A stretch of 51,407 nt of DNA, taken from Candidatus Rokuibacteriota bacterium. Its GTDB lineage: Bacteria > Methylomirabilota > Methylomirabilia > Rokubacteriales > CSP1-6. A program made the position numbers and the translations under genes. Position 1 is the stretch's first letter. Every line of letters starts with the position of its first letter. The notes beneath the pieces were generated by a model that did no database searches, was not told the origin of the DNA, and worked only from the letters and a program-made list of their open reading frames with translations. The stretch is taken from contig QHSP01000049.1 of NCBI GenBank assembly GCA_003220495.1, positions 1 through 51,407 on the forward strand, read 5' to 3'. Of this stretch, positions 6,017 through 35,026 are shown piece by piece.

Positions 6017-7327
6017 GTGACGCCGAGCGTTCACGGGCAGACGCCGGACTCCGACGCACACGCGCGCGTGGCGGAAGCGTTCCGCCAGGAGTACGCGCGC
6101 GTCGTCGCTTCGGTGCTGCGGATCGTGCGCGACATCGACCTGGCCGAGGAGATCGTCCAGGAGGCGTTCGAGCAAGCGCTCGACCACTGGCCCGCGTCCG
6201 GAGCGCCGGATCGGCCCGGCGCCTGGCTACTGACGACGGCGCGCCGGCGCGCGTTCGACCGTCTGCGTCGCGCTCGCCGAGCAGGAGCCAGGGCCGAGGC
6301 GCTCGCCTACGAGGCCGCGCTCGACGCGGGTGGCGAGAGTCCGGACGTGAGCGACCCCGAGACGATTGCCGACGACCGACTCCGGCTGATCTTCACCTGC
6401 TGCCACCCCGGGCTGCCGGCAGACAGCCGCGTGGCGCTCACCTTGAGATTGGTGGGCGGACTCTCGACGACCGAGATCGCTCGCGCGTTTCTCGTGCCCG
6501 AGCCCACGATTGCGCAGCGGCTCGTGCGCGCCAAGCGCACCATCCGCGACCGTGCCCTGCCGTACGAGGTGCCCGAGGGCGCTGAGCTGTCCGAGCGGCT
6601 CCCGGCCGTGCTCGCGGTGATCTATTTGATCTTCAACGAGGGCTACGCCGCCCACACCGGCGCCGCGCTCGTGCGTCACGATCTCTGCGCCGAGGCCGTC
6701 CGCCTCGGGCACATGCTCGCCGACCTGATGCCCGGCGAGCCCGAGGTGCTCGGCCTCCTCGCGCTGATGGAGCTGCAGACCTCGCGCGCCGCAACACGCG
6801 CCGACGCCGACGGCAATCTCGTGCTCCTGGCGGATCAGGACCGATCGCGGTGGGACCAGCCGCGGATCACGCGCGGTCTCGCGCTGCTCGGTCGCGCAGG
6901 CTCGATATCGCGCGCGGGTCCTTATCAGCTGCAGGCCGCGATCGCCGCCTGCCACGCCCGCGCGGCGTCCTGGGAGGCGACGGACTGGGAGGCGATCGTG
7001 ACGCACTATCGGGCGCTCGCCGACGTCGCGCCGTCTCCGGTGATCGAATTGAACCGCGCCGTGGCGATCGGTCTCGCGCGCGGGCCCGCCGCAGGACTCG
7101 TCGCGCTCGACGGCATCGATGCGGCCTCGCTCCGCTCCTACCACCTGCTGCCGGCGGCGCGAGCTGACTTCCTGCGGCGTCTCGGGCGCTCCGCAGAGGC
7201 CGCCGCCGAGTACCGTCGCGCGCTCGAGCTCACCGACAACGCGCGCGAGCAGAGCTTCTACGCGGCGCGGCTCGCGGCGTGTAGCCGGTCGCCGCAAGCT
7301 TCGGCGCGGAATCCGGGCCCGCGCTGA
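6017..7327 (+). CDS. ECF42-type RNA polymerase sigma factor with C-terminal TPR-like extension
   Basis: A 436-residue sigma-70-family protein, about twice the length of a normal ECF sigma factor. Region 2 is at about residues 20-85 (DIDLAEEIVQEAFEQALDHW, then PGAWLLTTARRRAFDRLRR); region 4 is at about 125-180 (ALTLRLVGGLSTTEIARAFL). The rest is the DUF6596/TPR-like extension of the ECF42 group, with the signatures YLIFNEGY and LLADQDRSRWD. No anti-sigma gene is nearby; in this group the extension itself is thought to be needed for activity. GTG 6017 is the first start that leaves region 2 intact. With the DGPF gene it forms the classical ECF42 module. Confidence 0.92.
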   Translation: MTPSVHGQTPDSDAHARVAEAFRQEYARVVASVLRIVRDIDLAEEIVQEAFEQALDHWPASGAPDRPGAWLLTTARRRAFDRLRRARRAGARAEALAYEAALDAGGESPDVSDPETIADDRLRLIFTCCHPGLPADSRVALTLRLVGGLSTTEIARAFLVPEPTIAQRLVRAKRTIRDRALPYEVPEGAELSERLPAVLAVIYLIFNEGYAAHTGAALVRHDLCAEAVRLGHMLADLMPGEPEVLGLLALMELQTSRAATRADADGNLVLLADQDRSRWDQPRITRGLALLGRAGSISRAGPYQLQAAIAACHARAASWEATDWEAIVTHYRALADVAPSPVIELNRAVAIGLARGPAAGLVALDGIDAASLRSYHLLPAARADFLRRLGRSAEAAAEYRRALELTDNAREQSFYAARLAACSRSPQASARNPGPR

Positions 7328-7409
7328 ATCCGGTGACGGGCCCGCGGCGGGATGGTCGACGCGTTGCTGCGCCACGGGGCGCGCGCCGATCTGTGGGTCG
7401 CCGAGCGGC

Positions 7410-8951
7410 TCAGCGGCCCGGCTTCAGCTTCAGATCCTCGTAGGGCGCCGAGTAGGAAAAGCCCTTGATGTGGTCGACGCACGCTTCCTCGACCCGCGGC
7501 CCGACGCCCCAGAGGAACGCGAGCTCGTAGATCGGCACGTGCAGAGCCCGGTCGTACATGATCTGCTGGATCTGGTGCAGCATCGACTCGCGCTTCTTCC
7601 GGTCCAGCTCGCGCGCCTGCCGCTGGTAGAGATCCTCGATCTCCGGCACGACGCCTGAGGCGTAGATGCCGGTCTTGATCACGTAGGCCTCGATGCGCGT
7701 GGCCGCGTTGCCGGCGGGCGCGCCGAGCCCCATGATGACGCCCTTGATCTTGTGCTCGCGCCATGCCGTCAGGAACGCCGCCCGCTCCATGGTGCGCAGG
7801 CGCGTGCGGATGCCGACCTCTTGCAGATAGTTCCCGATCGCCTCGGCGAGCGAGAAGAAGGGCGGGAACGGCGTGAGGTCGCCGGCGTCGAAGCCCGAGG
7901 GATATCCGGCCTCGGCGAGGAGCTTCCTGGCGCGGGCCGGATCGTAGGCGGGCGGCTCGAACGTCTGCGCGAATTCCAGGACGCGCGGGATCAGGCCGCC
8001 GGTCGGCCGTGAAAGCCCGAGCGTCTCGGCCTGATTGAGACCGTTCCGATCGAGCGCGGAGCTCGCCGCCAGCCGCACGCGCCGGTCGGCCCAGGGGGAC
8101 TTCGGATCCCACTGCTCCGGGAGATCGAGGAACACGACGCCGGGCGGCTGCGCGGCGGCCAGGCGAAGCCCCGGCGAGCGCTTGACCTCGGCGGCGACGG
8201 GCCCGCTCAGCAGATAGACGATGTCCACGTCGCCGGTCTTGAGAGCGGCCGCGCGCGTGGTCTCGTCGGGCATGCTCCGGAACACGAGCCGCTTCACGCT
8301 CGGGGTCTTGCGCCAGTAGCCCTCGAATGCCTCCAGCACCAGATCGACACCCGGGTTGAAGCTCACGAACTTGTACGGCCCCGCGCCGATCGGCGCCTTC
8401 TTGAAGCCGTCCTCGCCGACCTTCTCGACGTATTTCTTGGGGACGATCCACGCCGCTCCGGTCGCGGAGGTGCCGTAGAAGGTCATGAAGTCCGGCCACG
8501 GCTCCTTCAGCTGGAAGCGTACGCGGCCGGGATCGACGATCTGCACCTCCCGCACACGATCCTTCAGCAGCTTGGCCGCCGCGCCGTGGTAGCGCTCGAA
8601 GGAGTACTTGACGTCGTCCGCGGTGACCGGATCGCCGTTGTGGAACTTCGCGCCTTTGCGCAGGACGAATTCATAGCTGAGGCCGTCCTTCGACGTCGTC
8701 CACGACTCCGCGAGGCTCGGCGTGTTGTCGCCGCCCGGCATCGGCTTCACCAGCGCGTCGTGCAGCGCGTACAGCACCATGAACGGCGTGATGAACGCCT
8801 CGGTGTCGCTCGGATCGAGCCAGCGCGCCGCCAGGGTGACGTGAACACCCCAGGTCATCGTTCCGTCCGGTGCGGCGAACGCACGTTGCGGCGAGGCGAC
8901 CAGGAGCAGAAGCAGGGCGACGAGCACGCATCGGATCACGGACGATTTCAT
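7410..8951 (-). CDS. ABC transporter substrate-binding protein, peptide/nickel/opine type (SBP_bac_5)
   Basis: A 513-residue family-5 periplasmic binding protein (DppA/OppA-like). A signal peptide occupies residues 1-26 (CVLVALLLLLVASPQRAFA). Typical segments follow: LAESWTTSKDGLSYEFVLRK, GAKFHNGDPVTADDVKYSFE, the hinge-region DVDIVYLLSG, and YDPARARKLLAEAGYPSGFD. It would bind oligopeptides or similar solutes and deliver them to a membrane ABC complex, but no permease or ATPase is adjacent. It is divergent from the enolase-superfamily gene at 9010 with a 58-bp shared regulatory region, so the ligand might be related to that enzyme's substrate (inference). Confidence 0.9.
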   Translation of the reverse strand: MKSSVIRCVLVALLLLLVASPQRAFAAPDGTMTWGVHVTLAARWLDPSDTEAFITPFMVLYALHDALVKPMPGGDNTPSLAESWTTSKDGLSYEFVLRKGAKFHNGDPVTADDVKYSFERYHGAAAKLLKDRVREVQIVDPGRVRFQLKEPWPDFMTFYGTSATGAAWIVPKKYVEKVGEDGFKKAPIGAGPYKFVSFNPGVDLVLEAFEGYWRKTPSVKRLVFRSMPDETTRAAALKTGDVDIVYLLSGPVAAEVKRSPGLRLAAAQPPGVVFLDLPEQWDPKSPWADRRVRLAASSALDRNGLNQAETLGLSRPTGGLIPRVLEFAQTFEPPAYDPARARKLLAEAGYPSGFDAGDLTPFPPFFSLAEAIGNYLQEVGIRTRLRTMERAAFLTAWREHKIKGVIMGLGAPAGNAATRIEAYVIKTGIYASGVVPEIEDLYQRQARELDRKKRESMLHQIQQIMYDRALHVPIYELAFLWGVGPRVEEACVDHIKGFSYSAPYEDLKLKPGR

Positions 8952-25939: not shown

Positions 25940-26821
25940 CTAGCCCGCGAGCGCGGGCGAAACCTCGCGGGCGATCATCTCGAGCGCAGACCGCGCCTCG
26001 CGCGGGTCGCTCGTGTTGGCCGAGATGATCAAGGTCTCGACGCCGAGGGTCGCGTAGGCCTTCGCGTTCTTCAAGATCTCGGCCGGCTTCGTGCCGAGGG
26101 CGTGGCGTCCTGCGCGGGCAGCCGCGAGCGACATCGCGATCGAGACCGGGATCTTCGCGGCATCACGACCCACGGCGCGCGCTTCGTCGCGGAGCGCCGC
26201 GATCCCCTGCCCCAACGCTTCGGGTGACAGCCCGAGTGGCTGCCAGCCGTCGCCGAGTAGTGCCGCGCGACGGATGGCCGGCCGGCTGACGCCGCCGATC
26301 ACCACGGGGATCGACGGCTTCTGCAACGGCTTAGGCGAGAACTTCATCCCATCGAAGCGTGAGTACTTGCCGTCGAACTTCGGCTCGTCCTCGGTCCATA
26401 GAACGCGCATAGCGCGGATTGCCTCGTCGGTGAAGGCGCCGCGCTCGGCGTACGGGCTTCCCAGCGCGCGGATTTCCTTCTCGATGAGCCCCACGCCCAC
26501 GCCCATGATCAGCCGGCCGCCGCTCAGCACGTCGAGCGTCGCCGCCGCCTTCGCGAGCCGCACGGGATTGTGGTACGGGAGCACCAGCACCGAGGTGCCC
26601 AGGCGCACGCGCCGCGTTCGCGCCGCGACGAAGCTCAGGAGGGTAAGCGGCTCGTAATACGGCTTGCCGCCGATCCGGTCGAAGACGTGGCCCACGTTGA
26701 ACACGTGATCGTGAACCCAGACGGAGTCGACACCGAGCTCCTCCGCCCGGCACGCGATATCGACGAGCGCCTGCGCGTCCTCGACGCCCCAGTTGTTGAG
26801 CAGCGAGAATCCGATCTTCAT
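25940..26821 (-). CDS. LLM-class F420/FMN-dependent oxidoreductase
   Basis: A 293-residue luciferase-like oxidoreductase. Recognisable blocks are ELGVDSVWVHDHVFN, RRVRLGTSVLVLPYHNP, KAAATLDVLSGGRLIMGVGVG and the flavin/F420 barrel segment PSIPVVIGGVSRPAIRRAA. It begins 9 nt after the aldo/keto reductase gene, so the two form a leftward operon of redox enzymes. A second LLM protein is encoded at 13295. Substrate unknown. Confidence 0.9.
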   Translation of the reverse strand: MKIGFSLLNNWGVEDAQALVDIACRAEELGVDSVWVHDHVFNVGHVFDRIGGKPYYEPLTLLSFVAARTRRVRLGTSVLVLPYHNPVRLAKAAATLDVLSGGRLIMGVGVGLIEKEIRALGSPYAERGAFTDEAIRAMRVLWTEDEPKFDGKYSRFDGMKFSPKPLQKPSIPVVIGGVSRPAIRRAALLGDGWQPLGLSPEALGQGIAALRDEARAVGRDAAKIPVSIAMSLAAARAGRHALGTKPAEILKNAKAYATLGVETLIISANTSDPREARSALEMIAREVSPALAG

Positions 26822-26830
26822 CGGCCCACC

Positions 26831-27877
26831 TCAGGCCGCTCCGCCCGCCGGGATCTCGGCGCCCCACGGTTCCATGGCTGGACGCAGCGGCGTGAACTCG
26901 TTGACGCGGCCGGCCGCGCCCACCAGGATCGTCTCGATCTTCGCGCGCTCGGCCGGGGTCAGGTCGAGCTCGGTGCCCGCGTCGTTCGCGTCCACCTCGG
27001 CGGGTGTCCGCGCGCCGACCAGCGCGGTGCTGATCGCGGGATTGCCGAGCACCCAGGCCAGCGCGATCTGGCTCAGGGGCACGCCGCGCGGCTCAGCGAC
27101 CTCGCGGCGGAGCCGCTCGACCACGCCGACATTGGTCTTGAAGTTCTCGCCGCGGAAGATCGGCTGGCCGAAGGCGACGCCGCCGCCGCGCCAGTCGCGC
27201 GACGCCTCGCCGAAATTCGTCGCGCTCGTGAAGGCGCCGGTGAGCAGGCCGTGACCGAGCGAGCCATAGCCCATGACGCCGATGCCGTTGGTGAGACAGG
27301 TCGGGAACGTCTCCTGCTCCTGGCGCCGATCGAACATGTGATAGCCGACTTGCGAGACGTCGATCCGCCGGGTGCGCAGGCACTCGGCGATCATGGCGCC
27401 GGTGAAATTCGACACCCCGACGAAGCGAGCACGCCCGGAGGCCACGACCTTTTCGAGCGCACGCATCGTCTCCTCGAACGGCGTATTCGCGTCGGGCCAG
27501 TGGACCAGCAGCACGTCGACCCAGTCGGTGCGCAGCCGCTTCAGGCTCAGGTCGACCTCCCGCATGATGTTGGCGCGGCTCGCGTCGCGCAGCGGCCCGA
27601 GCTGGCCTGGCGGCGGCGGCTTGACGCCGCACTTGGTCACGAGGATCACGTCGCGCCGGGTCTTCTCGAGCGCGCGCGCCACGACCTCTTCGGAGTGACC
27701 GCCGCCGTAGGCCGGCGCGGTGTCCACGCAGTTCACGCCCCGGTCGAGCGCACGGTGGATGGCCTTGACGGCCTCGTCGTCCTCGATCGCTCCATAGCGG
27801 TCGCCGGCCATCGGCCAGCAGCCGAAGCCCAGCACCGATACTCGAAGCCCTGTCAGACCGAACGCACGGTAGCGCAT
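26831..27877 (-). CDS. Aldo/keto reductase
   Basis: A 348-residue NAD(P)H-dependent aldo/keto reductase. The catalytic tetrad is visible: D52 and Y57 (NCVDTAPAYGGG), K82 (ILVTKCG) and H126 (VLLVHWPD). The N-terminal GLRVSVLGFGCWPM and the cofactor-binding GNPAISTALVGARTPAEV near the C-terminus are typical of the family. It is the first gene of a leftward pair with the LLM oxidoreductase. Upstream, the open frame into the ABC operon is antisense only. Confidence 0.92.
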   Translation of the reverse strand: MRYRAFGLTGLRVSVLGFGCWPMAGDRYGAIEDDEAVKAIHRALDRGVNCVDTAPAYGGGHSEEVVARALEKTRRDVILVTKCGVKPPPPGQLGPLRDASRANIMREVDLSLKRLRTDWVDVLLVHWPDANTPFEETMRALEKVVASGRARFVGVSNFTGAMIAECLRTRRIDVSQVGYHMFDRRQEQETFPTCLTNGIGVMGYGSLGHGLLTGAFTSATNFGEASRDWRGGGVAFGQPIFRGENFKTNVGVVERLRREVAEPRGVPLSQIALAWVLGNPAISTALVGARTPAEVDANDAGTELDLTPAERAKIETILVGAAGRVNEFTPLRPAMEPWGAEIPAGGAA

Positions 27878-30322: not shown

Positions 30323-31152
30323 GCGGGCAGAGCCTCCGGCGGCGCTGGCTCTCGAGGGCCGGCTTCTATGGGCTCGCGCTGCTCTTCATGCTGCCGACGG
30401 TCTTCGTCTTCTACTGGATGATCACGCTCTCGTTGAAGCCCCAGGTGGAAGCGACGGCCTATCCGCCCTCGTTCGTGCGCTTCAGTATCACCACCGCCGG
30501 CTATCGTGAAGTCTTCACGAAGTATCCGTTCTTTCTCTACACGTGGAACAGTCTGGTCGTGGCGACGGGTTGCACGTTGCTCGGCCTCGCCGTGGGGCTG
30601 CCCGCGGCCTACTCCATCGCCCACTGGCGGCAGCAGCGGTTGGCCGTGATCATCCTGGTGGCGCGGATCATTCCCGGAATCGCCTACTTGATCCCCTGGT
30701 ACATCTTCTTCCGTCATCTCCGGATGGTGGACACCTACGGCGCGCTGATCCTGACCCATCTCATCGTGGGCCTGCCGATCATCATCTGGGTCATGATCTC
30801 GTTCTTCGAGGACGTGCCCGCCGATCTCGAGGATGCCGGGCTGATCGACGGCTGCTCGCACTTCGGGGTCTTCTGGCGGATCGCGCTCCCGCTCGTCAAG
30901 CCCGGCGTGGTCGCCACGGGGATTCTGTCGTTCGTGTTCTCGTGGAACAACTTCCTCTTCTCGGTGATCCTGGCCGGCCGCTCGACCCGCACCCTGCCGA
31001 TCGCCGTGTACAACATGATCTCGTACGAGGAGATCAACTGGGGCACCCTGGCGGCCGCGGCGACCTTGATCACCCTGCCCGTGCTCGTGGTTGCCCTCCT
31101 CGCTCAGCGGCACATCGTCACGGGCCTCACCTTCGGCGCGGTGAAGCAGTAG
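30316..31152 (+). CDS. Sugar ABC transporter permease (MalG/UgpE-like)
   Basis: A 278-residue inner-membrane permease, partner of the upstream subunit. About six membrane helices (first at FYGLALLFMLPTVFVFYWMI). The EAA loop is LEDAGLIDGCSHFGVFWRIA then LPLVKPGV. FSWNNFLFSVILAG and the C-terminal RHIVTGLTFGAVKQ are characteristic of MalG-type proteins. No ATP-binding subunit follows, so the importer must use an ATPase encoded elsewhere. Ends 17 nt from the convergent alanine-racemase-like gene. Confidence 0.92.
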   Translation: MVSGQSLRRRWLSRAGFYGLALLFMLPTVFVFYWMITLSLKPQVEATAYPPSFVRFSITTAGYREVFTKYPFFLYTWNSLVVATGCTLLGLAVGLPAAYSIAHWRQQRLAVIILVARIIPGIAYLIPWYIFFRHLRMVDTYGALILTHLIVGLPIIIWVMISFFEDVPADLEDAGLIDGCSHFGVFWRIALPLVKPGVVATGILSFVFSWNNFLFSVILAGRSTRTLPIAVYNMISYEEINWGTLAAAATLITLPVLVVALLAQRHIVTGLTFGAVKQ

Positions 31153-31169
31153 CGTCGACCGAGCGTTCG

Positions 31170-32282
31170 TCAGGCGGAGAGGTAGACGCGAGCGACGCGC
31201 GGTCCGACCGTCGTCGCCACGTGATGCAGCCCGAGGCCGTGGCGTGAGGCCACCTCGGCCGGCGTGATCTCGAGCTCGCCCTGGCGGCCGATGATGACGA
31301 CCTCGTCCCCGACCGCGGCGTCGGGAATTCCGGTCAAGTCGATCCGCGTGTGCTCGAGCGAGGGCGAGCTGACGATGGGCGCCGCCCGGCCCCGCACGAG
31401 CACACGGCCCGCGTTGAGCCAGAGCATCCCGTCGGCCGAGCCGATCGGCACGACGCCCAGCCGCATGGGCGCCGTCACCGGGAACGGCGCGCGATCGGCG
31501 AAGCGCGCGCGGGGGGTCAGCTCCTTCAGCGCGACCACGTGCGTCTTGAGGGCGCGAAGCGCCGGGCGCAGCGGCAGCGGCGGCGTCTCGCCCGGCATGA
31601 TGACGCCGTAGAGCATCCGGCCTGGATCGACGGCGTTGAGATACGTGTGCGGGAAGCGGAGCACGAACGGTGTCGCCGCGAGGAGCCGCACGGGGACGCG
31701 GACGCCCTGAGCTTCCAGCTCGTCGATCACCGACGTGAATCGCCCGAGCTGCCAATCGGCGTACGCGGAGTCGCCACTGTCAGCGTGGGGATGGCCGCAT
31801 AGTCCGGCGAGGCGCAGATGCGGCAAATCGAGCATGGCGCGGATCGTCTTCACCGCCTGCTCCGCCGGCACGCCCAGGCGCTCGAGCCCGACGTCGACCT
31901 TGACGAAGAAATCACACGGGCCGCTCGCCGCCTCCGAGTAGGCCCGGGCCGAGTCGAGATCGACGAAGGTGGGAACCAGATCGTGGGCCAGCGCCTCGGC
32001 CGCGGCGCCCGGCAGCGAGTTCGGATACACGAGGATCGGCGTCGAGATCCCGTGCTGCCGGAGCCTGATGCCCTCGCTCAGATCGGCCACCGCCAGCCAG
32101 TCGGCTCCGTTCCGCGCGAACGCCGTCCCCATCTCGGCGGCACCGAAGCCATAGCCGCCCGCTTTGATGACGGCGAAAATCTTGCGCTCCGGGCCGACGA
32201 GCTGGCGCACCGCGCGCACGTTGTGCGCCGCGGCGTCGAGATCGATCTCGAGCAGCGTCGGGCGCGCCGGGCCGCTGCTCAT
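31170..32282 (-). CDS. Alanine-racemase-like fold-III PLP enzyme with altered active site
   Basis: A 370-residue protein with both domains of alanine racemase: an N-terminal TIM barrel with the PLP lysine K40 (IFAVIKAGGYGFG; usual form VKANAYGHG) and a C-terminal beta domain (AVGDEVVIIGRQG). R135 (GLERLG) is kept. Three key positions differ: the catalytic Tyr265 motif GYADG reads G-S-A-D-G (S282); Arg219, which contacts the PLP pyridine nitrogen, aligns with D219 (LNAVDPGRMLYG); and the GRVCMDQ segment is SSPSLEHTRID. Without Tyr265 normal two-base racemisation is not expected, and an acid at 219 would favour a quinonoid intermediate. Probably another amino-acid reaction. Leftward group with the HpcH/HpaI aldolase (34 nt upstream). 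Confidence 0.85.
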   Translation of the reverse strand: MSSGPARPTLLEIDLDAAAHNVRAVRQLVGPERKIFAVIKAGGYGFGAAEMGTAFARNGADWLAVADLSEGIRLRQHGISTPILVYPNSLPGAAAEALAHDLVPTFVDLDSARAYSEAASGPCDFFVKVDVGLERLGVPAEQAVKTIRAMLDLPHLRLAGLCGHPHADSGDSAYADWQLGRFTSVIDELEAQGVRVPVRLLAATPFVLRFPHTYLNAVDPGRMLYGVIMPGETPPLPLRPALRALKTHVVALKELTPRARFADRAPFPVTAPMRLGVVPIGSADGMLWLNAGRVLVRGRAAPIVSSPSLEHTRIDLTGIPDAAVGDEVVIIGRQGELEITPAEVASRHGLGLHHVATTVGPRVARVYLSA

Positions 32283-32316
32283 CGAGACTCGTGTCGACAG
32301 CCGCGTCGGGGCGAGG

Positions 32317-33084
32317 TCACGCGGTCGCGGCTTTCAGATCGTCGAGCTGCCGTCGGGCGCCTGCGATCATCGAGGCGAGGTCCGAGGTGAGCATGACCAT
32401 GTCGAAGCCACGCTTCACCGCGCCGGCCGCGAACGCCGCGCTCGCGCAGTGCATGACCGCCTTGATGCCGTGCTTGTGCGCCGCATCGCGGATCTTGTCG
32501 CAGGTCGCGATGTGGACCGGCTCGGGATTGTCGCCGCGCGGCGCGAGCCCCAGCGCGAACGAGAGATCGGACGGCCCGATGTACACCGCGTCGAGCCCAG
32601 GGGTGGCGCAGATCTTGTCGAGGTTGGCGAGGCCTTCCTTCGTCTCGATCATCGCCATCACCACGATCTCGTCGTTGGCCTTCGCCAGGTAGTCGGCGCC
32701 GCCGTAGTGCACGGCGCGCACCGGCCCGGACGAGCGCATGCCCACGGGCGGATAGCGGCACGCGGCCACCGCCTTCGCCGCGTCGTCAGCGTTGTTGACC
32801 AGCGGCACGATGATCGCGTAGGCGCCGAGGTCGAGCGCCTTCATGATGGTCGGCGGGTCGTTCCACGGCACCCGCACGACGGGCACGGTCTCGGTCTGTG
32901 AGATCGCCTGCAGCATCGGCCAGACGTCGTTCATGTCGGTCGTGCCGTGCTGCATGTCGACGCAGAGGGCGTCGAAGCCCTGGCGCGCCATCACCTCGGC
33001 GGTGAACCCGTGAGAGACAGAGAGCCAGCCCAGGGTGACGAACTTCCCGTCGCGCCACATCTGCTTGATCTTGTTCGGCCGCAC
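32317..33084 (-). CDS. HpcH/HpaI aldolase/citrate lyase family protein
   Basis: A 255-residue class II pyruvate-dependent aldolase-type protein (HpaI/YfaU branch). Key residues are visible: H46 (CVDMQHGTTD), R71 (PVVRVPWND), YPPVGMRSSG at 111-120, metal ligands E147 (MAMIETKEG) and D173 (YIGPSDLS). It would split or form 4-hydroxy-2-oxo acids into pyruvate and an aldehyde. GTG start with GAGGTG upstream on the reverse strand. Middle gene between a D-2-hydroxyacid dehydrogenase and the alanine-racemase homologue, suggesting 2-oxo-acid metabolism. Confidence 0.92.
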   Translation of the reverse strand: MRPNKIKQMWRDGKFVTLGWLSVSHGFTAEVMARQGFDALCVDMQHGTTDMNDVWPMLQAISQTETVPVVRVPWNDPPTIMKALDLGAYAIIVPLVNNADDAAKAVAACRYPPVGMRSSGPVRAVHYGGADYLAKANDEIVVMAMIETKEGLANLDKICATPGLDAVYIGPSDLSFALGLAPRGDNPEPVHIATCDKIRDAAHKHGIKAVMHCASAAFAAGAVKRGFDMVMLTSDLASMIAGARRQLDDLKAATA

Positions 33085-33205
33085 TGTTGCACCTCGCTAG
33101 TGGGGTAGCGCCGTCGCCGGCGCGCCCGCGAAGCGTAGCACACCCGGGCGTCGGGGGTTTGGCGGCGGCCGCTCGCGATCACCCGCGTCTTCGAGCACGC
33201 TCCGA

Positions 33206-34216
33206 TCAACGGCCGCGGCGGATCGCCCCCGCCGCATACACCTCGGGGTTCACCACGTTGAGCGGCCGCCGGCCGGTGAGCACACGCGCCACCTCGTCGC
33301 CGCAGCGCCGCGGGATCTGGGCGACCGCCGCCGACGAGAAATACGCGGCGTGGGGCGTGGCGATCACGTTCTCCATCTTCAGGAGCGGGTTGTCGGCCGC
33401 CACCGGCTCGTCCTCCCATACGTCGAGCGCCGCGCCGGCCAGGCGCTGGTCACGCAGAGCCCGGGCCAGCGCTTGCTCGTCCACCACAGGCCCGCGCGAG
33501 GTGTTGATCAGGATGGCCGTTGGCTTCATGCGCCGGAAGAACGCCTCGCCGATCAGGTGGCGGGTCTCGGCGCTCAGCAAGGTGTGGACGGAGACGTAGT
33601 CGGCGCGCTCGGCCAGGGTCTCGAGCGAGACGCGCTCGACGCCGAGCGCGGCGAAGCGCTGGTCGTCGACGTACGGATCGCACGCGATCACCTTCGTCTC
33701 GAGCGCGGCCACGCGCCGCGCGAAGGCGCTGCCGATGTTGCCGAGGCCGACGATGCCCACGGTCTCGCCGTGCAGCGCGCCGGTGTGACTGCCCGGCACT
33801 CGCCCGCTCCACACACCCGCGTGCACCTGCCGATCCATGACGACCACCCCTCGGTTCCACGCCAGGAGCAGCGCGAGCGCGTGATTCGCCACTTCGCGGA
33901 TCCAGAGGTCGGGGATGTTGACGACGATCACGCCCAGATCCGTGGCGGCCGGCACGTCGATGACGTCGTACCCGACGCCGGTGCGCACCACGACCTTCAG
34001 ACCTTCGAGCGCGCTCATCACGCCGCGCGTGACCGGCGCGGACGAGACGACGAGCGCATCGGCGTCGCGCGTGCGTGCGATCATGTCGTCCTCGGCCTCG
34101 ACTTGAGGCAGCGAGATCATGCGCGCCGGGACGCGGCTCAGCACTGTCTGGCAATCGGCGAAGTCCCACTGGGCGTTTCCGAGGATGACGTAGACGTGCG
34201 GGGACGTGTCGGCCAT
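33206..34216 (-). CDS. D-isomer-specific 2-hydroxyacid dehydrogenase (CtBP/SerA-like)
   Basis: About 336 residues from ATG 34216; the open frame extends 20 codons further, across the divergent promoter, without conserved residues. NAD-binding GLGNIG is at 157-162, and the catalytic residues are R241 (INTSRGPVVDE), E270 (DVWEDEPV) and H289 (ATPHAAYFS). The N-terminal half has VVVRTGVGYDVIDV. It interconverts a 2-oxo acid and its D-hydroxy acid. First gene of the leftward group with the HpcH/HpaI aldolase (121 nt downstream). Divergent from the broken acetamidase gene, 31 nt away. Confidence 0.92.
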   Translation of the reverse strand: MADTSPHVYVILGNAQWDFADCQTVLSRVPARMISLPQVEAEDDMIARTRDADALVVSSAPVTRGVMSALEGLKVVVRTGVGYDVIDVPAATDLGVIVVNIPDLWIREVANHALALLLAWNRGVVVMDRQVHAGVWSGRVPGSHTGALHGETVGIVGLGNIGSAFARRVAALETKVIACDPYVDDQRFAALGVERVSLETLAERADYVSVHTLLSAETRHLIGEAFFRRMKPTAILINTSRGPVVDEQALARALRDQRLAGAALDVWEDEPVAADNPLLKMENVIATPHAAYFSSAAVAQIPRRCGDEVARVLTGRRPLNVVNPEVYAAGAIRRGR

Positions 34217-34247
34217 GATGGCTCCGTAGTCTACAGGAGGACAATCC

Positions 34248-34568
34248 ATGAAGACCGTCGAGATCGACCGCGGCAAGCGCCTGAGAGATCAGCCAGCGAC
34301 CGGCCACAACCGGTTTCATCCGGACGTTCAGCCCATCGTCACCGTGGATGGAAGCGGGCGCCATCCATCCGCTCACCGGTCCGGTCTTCGTCAAGGGCGC
34401 GCGCCCCGGTGACGTCCTCGAGATCGAGTTCCTCGACATCATGCCCCCGCACGCGTTCACCGCGATCGTGCCGGGGCTCGGCTTCTTGCGCGACGTGTTC
34501 ACGACGTGGTCAACGTGCCGAACTACGTCGTGTCGGCCCTGCTTCCCGAAGCCATCTTCGGGGGGTGA
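34248..34568 (+). pseudogene. Acetamidase/formamidase pseudogene with two internal deletions
   Basis: Three fragments of one FmdA/AmdA-like enzyme lie in order but in different frames. Part A (from ATG 34248, good AGGAGGA site) reads MKTVEIDRGKRLRDQPATGH up to IVTVD. Part B (34348 to about 34511) reads AGAIHPLTGPVFVKGARPGD, then VLEIEFLDIM and FTAIVPGLGFLRDVFTT. Part C (about 34503-34568) reads DVVNVPNYVVSALLPEAIF and ends with TGA, which is the normal C-terminus of the family. The intact enzyme is about 300-330 residues, so roughly two thirds are missing. Both junctions also shift frame. The gene once hydrolysed a short amide to ammonia and a carboxylate. Confidence 0.8.
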
Positions 34569-34584
34569 CCGACGCGAATTGGCT

Positions 34585-34611
34585 CTAGGCCCGGTCCCGA
34601 GGCCGGGCTAG
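34585..34611 (+). terminator. Hairpin after the acetamidase pseudogene
   Basis: CTAGGCCCGG and CCGGGCTAG form a 9-bp stem with one bulged G and an 8-nt loop, 16 nt after the pseudogene stop. No T-run follows, so it is terminator-like at best. Confidence 0.35.
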
Positions 34612-34651
34612 GGTGTGAGGGTGCCCAACTCGAAGGCCGGAGGCGCAATTC

Positions 34652-35026
34652 ATGGCGACTGAGACGATCGTCACGACGGATCTGCCGACGCTGGAACAAC
34701 TCAATCGCGACTACATCAGCGCCGTCCAGAACTCGGACGTGCGCCGGTTCGACGAGATCCTCGCCGAGGACTTCCTGTGCAGCAATCCCGATGGCTCGCT
34801 CGTCGACCGCGCCGGATTCCTGGTGCAGACGGCGCGCCCGGTGACGATCTCGAACCTCGAGGCGCGCGACGTGCGCATCCGGATCATGGGCGACGTCGCG
34901 ATCATCCACGCACGGACGACGTACACGATGCCGGACGGCCGCGCGGCCTCCGGCCGCTACTCCGACGTCTGGGCGCGCCGGCAGGGCCGCTGGCTCGCCG
35001 TGTCGGCCCACGTCACGCGCTGCTGA
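34652..35026 (+). CDS. NTF2-like (SnoaL/DUF4440) domain protein
   Basis: A 124-residue single-domain protein of the NTF2 cone fold. Typical DUF4440 features are LEQLNRDYISAVQNSDVRRF, DEILAEDFLCSNPDGSLVDR, VRIMGDVAIIHARTTYT and the final VWARRQGRWLAVSAHVTR. Such proteins are ketosteroid-isomerase-like and may be small isomerases, hydrolases or binding proteins; function is unknown here. GGAGG lies upstream of ATG 34652. Isolated gene between the acetamidase pseudogene and the convergent peroxiredoxin. Confidence 0.85.
   Translation: MATETIVTTDLPTLEQLNRDYISAVQNSDVRRFDEILAEDFLCSNPDGSLVDRAGFLVQTARPVTISNLEARDVRIRIMGDVAIIHARTTYTMPDGRAASGRYSDVWARRQGRWLAVSAHVTRC

Follow-up and report, generated by a model that had tools for sequence, protein, structure and literature searches.

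In alanine racemase Lys39 serves the D side and the second base, Tyr265, the L side (PMC6411801). Arg219 of the canonical enzymes contacts the PLP pyridine nitrogen (PMC3245724) and leaves it unprotonated, favouring racemisation over other PLP reactions (PMC3245724; PMC5025676). With an arginine on this nitrogen both the quinonoid and transamination are suppressed; an acid in its place, of the kind seen in CBL, has the reverse effect (PMC5025676). The inner layer of the entryway consists of four residues, among them Tyr265, Tyr284 and Tyr354 (PMC3245724). How PLP enzymes are steered towards racemisation, aldol cleavage or transamination has been studied in this fold mostly through laboratory mutants of alanine racemase. 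The change Y265A alone turned the Geobacillus enzyme into a D-threonine aldolase with no metal, for which His166 was proposed as the base (PMC4401734; PMC6411801), and it lowers racemase activity more than 1000-fold (PMC3962183). According to the passage of PMC3962183 that cites Yow et al., a double active-site mutant lost racemase activity and its half-transamination rose 6.6-fold.

The gene studied here lies in a window (the whole stretch of DNA analysed, 51,407 nucleotides, one contig) of a Candidatus Rokuibacteriota genome of 6.0 Mb that is 98% complete. Its product, P0001, keeps the two-domain layout of alanine racemases, as the initial annotation had stated: Ala_racemase_N (177 bits) and Ala_racemase_C (70 bits) were each above the cut-off in a Pfam search, and NCBIfam model TIGR00492, the alanine racemase equivalog, gave 215 bits for a cut-off of 168. 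The predicted structure (pLDDT 90, pTM 0.87) matched alanine and serine racemase structures in Foldseek, including Alr/DadX of Geobacillus stearothermophilus (PDB 1bd0/1sft) and the VanT serine racemase (4ecl), with a TM-score of about 0.9; identity to the best structure matches was about 30–36%. The block 261–270 of the model is of low confidence (65), and D263 lies inside it.

Two other groups of enzymes were compared with P0001. D-threonine aldolases and D-serine dehydratases (PF01168 + PF14031), whose D-amino acid chemistry is for P0001 only a proposal, have the fold-III barrel in common with it. However, they carry the D-ser_dehydrat domain (PF14031), the metal-site domain of D-threonine aldolases, which Pfam did not find in P0001, where Ala_racemase_C stands instead. 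The partner of the pyridine nitrogen is Gln in AxDTA (PMC4401734) and a predicted Asp in P0001. With the fold-III ornithine/diaminopimelate decarboxylases P0001 shares, in kind, an acid at the nitrogen-contact position, but their family domains gave no match to it in Pfam or NCBIfam, and a decarboxylase reading was dropped for want of any family match.

P0001 was aligned against PDB chains and the residues were numbered after Geobacillus alanine racemase (PDB 1bd0). Residues K40, Y44, K128, R135 and H164 of P0001 correspond to K39, Y43, K129, R136 and H166, and the equivalents of the PLP lysine, Arg136, His166 and Lys129 of Alr/DadX and VanT are thus kept, K40 being the PLP lysine that had already been named. 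The replacement of Arg219 by Asp, also claimed before, was borne out by a gap-free alignment (NAVDPG against NMVRFG). The initial annotation was right as well that the catalytic tyrosine is lost, but it had placed this loss at S282 in the GSADG motif. S282 corresponds instead to the entryway Tyr284 (GYADG), and Tyr265 corresponds to D263 (RFADRAPF against KVSYGATY) in an alignment that is ungapped from the LTP/LQP anchor through the GxADG anchor. The numbering is fixed because chain 1xqk, entitled in the PDB as the Y265F mutant, reads KVSFGATY and carries F exactly where 1bd0 has Y, at the position aligned with D263; both the alignment and this chain rule out S282 as Tyr265. On the alignment, neither an unaltered Tyr nor an unaltered Arg was found elsewhere in the active site. 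In addition, Tyr354 is replaced by H353, His200 by L200, Met312 by L309 and Asp313 by E310. Since the three tyrosines of the inner layer are all replaced, the entryway gate of P0001 has been rebuilt. The main features are collected in the table.

Table. Features of the racemase-like gene, of its active-site codons and of neighbouring genes (window positions unless another locus is given).
Feature	Position	Strand	Remarks
Alanine-racemase-like PLP enzyme gene (P0001)	31170..32282	-	370 aa, intact ORF
Lys40 codon (PLP lysine, Lys39 equivalent)	32163..32165	-	arithmetic from start codon 32280-32282
Asp219 codon (Arg219 equivalent)	31626..31628	-	alignment
Asp263 codon (Tyr265 equivalent)	31494..31496	-	alignment
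Ser282 codon (Tyr284 equivalent, entryway)	31437..31439	-	alignment
HpcH/HpaI aldolase gene	32317..33084	-	directly upstream of P0001, 34 bases between
D-2-hydroxyacid dehydrogenase gene	33206..34276	-	co-directional with P0001; also in L080, L081
Aldo/keto reductase gene	26831..27877	-	homologue directly follows racemase-like gene in L080-L082
F420-type LLM oxidoreductase gene	25940..26821	-	after aldo/keto reductase in window, L080, L081
L-threonine-aldolase-family gene (GntG family)	L088 3046-4083	-	NF041359, 386 bits; nearest PDB chains L-allo-threonine aldolase

Homologues were searched with P0001 as query in 95 genomes of the class, including that of the window. Sequences at least 62% identical were present in 17 of them, all from the same family (identity range 62–90%), and at genus level the homologue was found in 8 of 9 genomes. 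Lys40, Arg135, His164 and Asp219 are invariant in the 17. The position of Tyr265 is occupied by Glu in 12, Ala in three and Asp in two, never by Tyr, the members with Ala being the three early-branching ones; that of Tyr284 is Ser in 14 and another residue in three. By comparison, every one of the 43 canonical enzymes has Arg219, Tyr265 and Tyr284, so P0001 lacks both the second base and the arginine on the pyridine nitrogen that these enzymes share. Compared with Alr/DadX and VanT, P0001 has Asp for Arg219, Asp (in homologues also Glu or Ala) for Tyr265, Ser for Tyr284, His for Tyr354, Leu for His200 and Leu-Glu for Met-Asp at 312–313. The dN/dS ratio of P0001 was 0.15–0.20 against four nearer relatives (80–90% identical) and 0.45 against L022 (63% identical), the latter value being rough at such divergence. 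Because Asp219 is present and Tyr265 absent in 17 of 17 homologues, against the uniform canonical pattern, and dN/dS is low, neither change is attributable to chance. Across the 17 homologues His164, His166, Glu310 and His311 of P0001 do not vary either, and Cys162 hardly varies; some of these five may be candidate metal ligands.

In addition to P0001, the genome of the window encodes a canonical alanine racemase (L001, on contig C94), which carries the motifs RVRPG, TGYGA and AGYAD together with Arg219 and Tyr265, and therefore P0001 is not needed for D-alanine supply. The same genome contains, at L005 (1462-2562, plus strand), a protein of the D-threonine-aldolase/D-serine-dehydratase type (PF01168 + PF14031) with a PPHCDP motif.

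On the minus strand of the window the genes for the 2-hydroxyacid dehydrogenase, the HpcH/HpaI aldolase and P0001 follow each other, and the last two probably share an operon. This grouping, pointed out earlier for the window, is conserved in only some relatives: HpcH/HpaI is directly upstream in 5 of 17 (window, L080, L081, L082 and L084) and the dehydrogenase stands beside the pair in 3 of 17. In L080 and L081 dehydrogenase, HpcH/HpaI and racemase-like genes are directly followed by those for the aldo/keto reductase and the LLM oxidoreductase, and in L082 the order is HpcH, racemase-like gene, aldo/keto reductase. In the window the genes for the aldo/keto reductase and the LLM oxidoreductase lie 3.3 kb further on, past a plus-strand sugar-type ABC transporter (28.4–31.15 kb), a placement that suggests an insertion or rearrangement. 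In L088 (genome G091) an L-threonine-aldolase-family gene ends in a stop codon that overlaps the racemase-like start (ATGA). Altogether, the racemase-like gene directly follows an aldolase gene of another fold in 6 of the 17 clade members, which as a functional hint is suggestive but no proof. Other partners were a DAO-type oxidase and an enoyl-CoA hydratase in L083 (Pfam) and likewise in L085, and hydantoinase A in L093 (Pfam), in L094 (sequence) and probably in L095 (sequence); in L095 the racemase-like gene also overlaps one for a class III aminotransferase. A scan of positions 31000–34700 found neither promoters nor terminators. At 34348-34611 (plus strand) just a short acetamidase/formamidase (PF03069) piece is open, while its match in L081 is an ORF of 369 aa (6826-7935); the copy in the window looks truncated or frame-shifted.

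The position of the clade was studied in a tree of 51 sequences, 31 of them canonical, besides a quick tree of 74 sequences. The Rokubacteria clade and two other branches formed one group with a support of 100/100, to which none of the 31 canonical enzymes belonged. The first of these branches, linked to hydantoinase, comprises L031 (P0002) and plasmid genes of Bosea, Caballeronia and Paraburkholderia, and has AV(D/N)PG, a retained Tyr265 and Phe at 284. Its Bosea and Paraburkholderia genes come directly after hydantoinase/oxoprolinase A and B genes, and L031 adjoins genes resembling such a pair, a similarity judged by eye from the sequence. The second branch, rhizobial (Shinella, Rhizobium, A. 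vitis, S. medicae and A. fabrum), has AVDPG, Tyr265 (Phe in one) and Trp at 284. Its gene lies within amino acid ABC transporter genes in four of five cases, S. medicae having only a short transporter remnant. Apart from L031, both sister branches were drawn from a plasmid collection. Their genes resemble P0001 in belonging to the same superclade, in Asp/Asn219 and in the loss of His200 and Tyr354, but differ from it in residues 265 and 284 and in their operons. Because Asp/Asn219 is common to the three branches and the loss of Tyr265 marks the Rokubacteria clade only, the change at 219 probably came first, by parsimony on these sequences. With this superclade a natural series is at hand (Arg with Tyr, Asp with Tyr, Asp without Tyr), and the sequence in which the changes arose can be both read from it and put to the test.

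Further members were searched for in samples used without positive control. Among 398 Pseudomonadota genomes, a DNA motif of AV(D/N)PG(R/S)(M/L) matched at 15 places, not one of which lay in a racemase-like protein, and P0002 as query found no clade member. P0001 found none in 247 Acidobacteriota and 251 Chloroflexota genomes, and the Chloroflexota matches of P0002 with readable residues were canonical-type enzymes only. A literature search, thin on subscription journals, returned no description of an Asp219 variant without Tyr265 or of hydantoinase-linked racemase clusters. In the rhizobial branch, locus L130 (2446-10238) of Rhizobium plasmid pTiB230_85 has the order LysR, ABC transporter, racemase-like gene, binding protein, CapA-type gene and traR, a layout reminiscent of opine operons, and the CapA-type product has a weak match to the model of MslH, a lasso-peptide Trp epimerase.

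Among the readings considered, P0001 is almost certainly not an alanine racemase, and it is likely to be a D-specific PLP enzyme other than a racemase. The view of the initial annotation that it is a distinct fold-III enzyme whose site is no longer racemase-like finds support in the alignment, the tree and the gene neighbourhood. Our leading reading, with a probability of about 0.45, is that aldol cleavage is its main reaction and that P0001 would be a derived D-specific enzyme with Lys40 as single base, acting as a retro-aldolase on D-beta-hydroxy amino acids. Lys40 would form the aldimine and serve the D face only, Asp219 would keep the pyridine nitrogen protonated and so stabilise a quinonoid/carbanion, and the loss of the tyrosines would make room for a bulkier, beta-substituted substrate. 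For this reading speak the residues, their conservation under purifying selection, the well-supported superclade, the separate canonical enzyme and the neighbouring aldolase genes. By analogy, the changes in the site resemble those of laboratory alanine racemase mutants turned into aldolase or transaminase. Like the artificial D-threonine aldolase Y265A (PMC4401734; PMC6411801), P0001 lacks Tyr265, keeps the equivalent of His166 and has a presumably enlarged site; unlike it, P0001 is natural, is known here from its sequence and also has Asp219 and further changes. Several points speak against the aldolase reading. The 17 differ in their neighbourhoods (aldolases, DAO-type oxidase, hydantoinase A, class III aminotransferase, or no co-directional gene close by), position 263 does not carry an acid throughout, P0001 lacks the metal-binding domain of D-threonine aldolases, and the prediction of the 261–270 loop is poor. 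In addition, the aldolase role is not uniquely vacant, because the genome also encodes L005. The most economical order of preference is retro-aldol cleavage, then transamination or deamination, then a racemase with another base. We would also suggest, tentatively, that this may be a natural family repeating the engineered conversion, with Arg219 changed to Asp and Tyr265 lost afterwards in a readable order, and yielding either a fold-III D-aldolase that needs no metal or the first D-aminotransferase of that fold.

That P0001 is instead a D-amino acid aminotransferase or deaminase on the racemase fold, working by half-transamination or beta-elimination, appears rather unlikely. Lys40 would shift the alpha-proton to C4', aided by the protonated pyridine, and the 2-oxo acid would feed the HpcH/HpaI aldolase and the 2-hydroxyacid dehydrogenase. 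Transamination is what an acid at position 219 should promote (PMC5025676). Both neighbouring families handle 2-oxo acids, and the overlapping class III aminotransferase gene of L095 is in agreement. The half-transamination gained by the double mutant points the same way, and this mutant reportedly combined changes at Arg219 and Tyr265. However, we know of no fold-III aminotransferase, and a second-substrate site cannot be inferred for P0001. Moreover, the passage of PMC3962183 on the double mutant does not name its two residues.

Still less probable is an enzyme that racemises or epimerises a larger amino acid, perhaps a beta-hydroxy or cationic one, and uses Glu/Asp263 or a histidine as its L-face base. 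The acid found at the Tyr265 position in 14 of the 17, the new invariant His166 and His311, the retention of Tyr265 in the sister branches and the L-threonine-aldolase-family neighbour in L088, which could use an epimerised substrate, would fit with it. However, three early-branching members have Ala at 263, no member of the superclade retains Arg219, a residue linked to racemisation specificity, and to our knowledge no carboxylate acts as second base in the alanine racemase fold. Many canonical residues are lost, as in a pseudoenzyme or decaying paralogue without catalysis, but the low dN/dS against near relatives and the four residues invariant in 17 of 17 make this highly improbable. Least credible is an alanine racemase of the usual kind able to work with atypical residues, in favour of which the TIGR00492 score and the fold would speak, since both catalytic-specificity residues are altered in every homologue, L001 is already in the genome and Y265A costs the engineered enzyme most of its racemase activity (PMC3962183).

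The TIGR00492 score is not peculiar to P0001. L031 (P0002) and the Bosea and Shinella members also exceed the cut-off, and most sister-branch plasmid genes are annotated as 'alanine racemase'. Because members of all three Asp/Asn219 branches are above its cut-off, TIGR00492 probably over-names this superclade, and the database label is probably wrong about the reaction of P0001, from a soil bacterium, and its relatives. The standard model thus gives the name alanine racemase to proteins, both in Rokubacteria and on plasmids of rhizobia and Burkholderiales, whose reaction is probably a different one.
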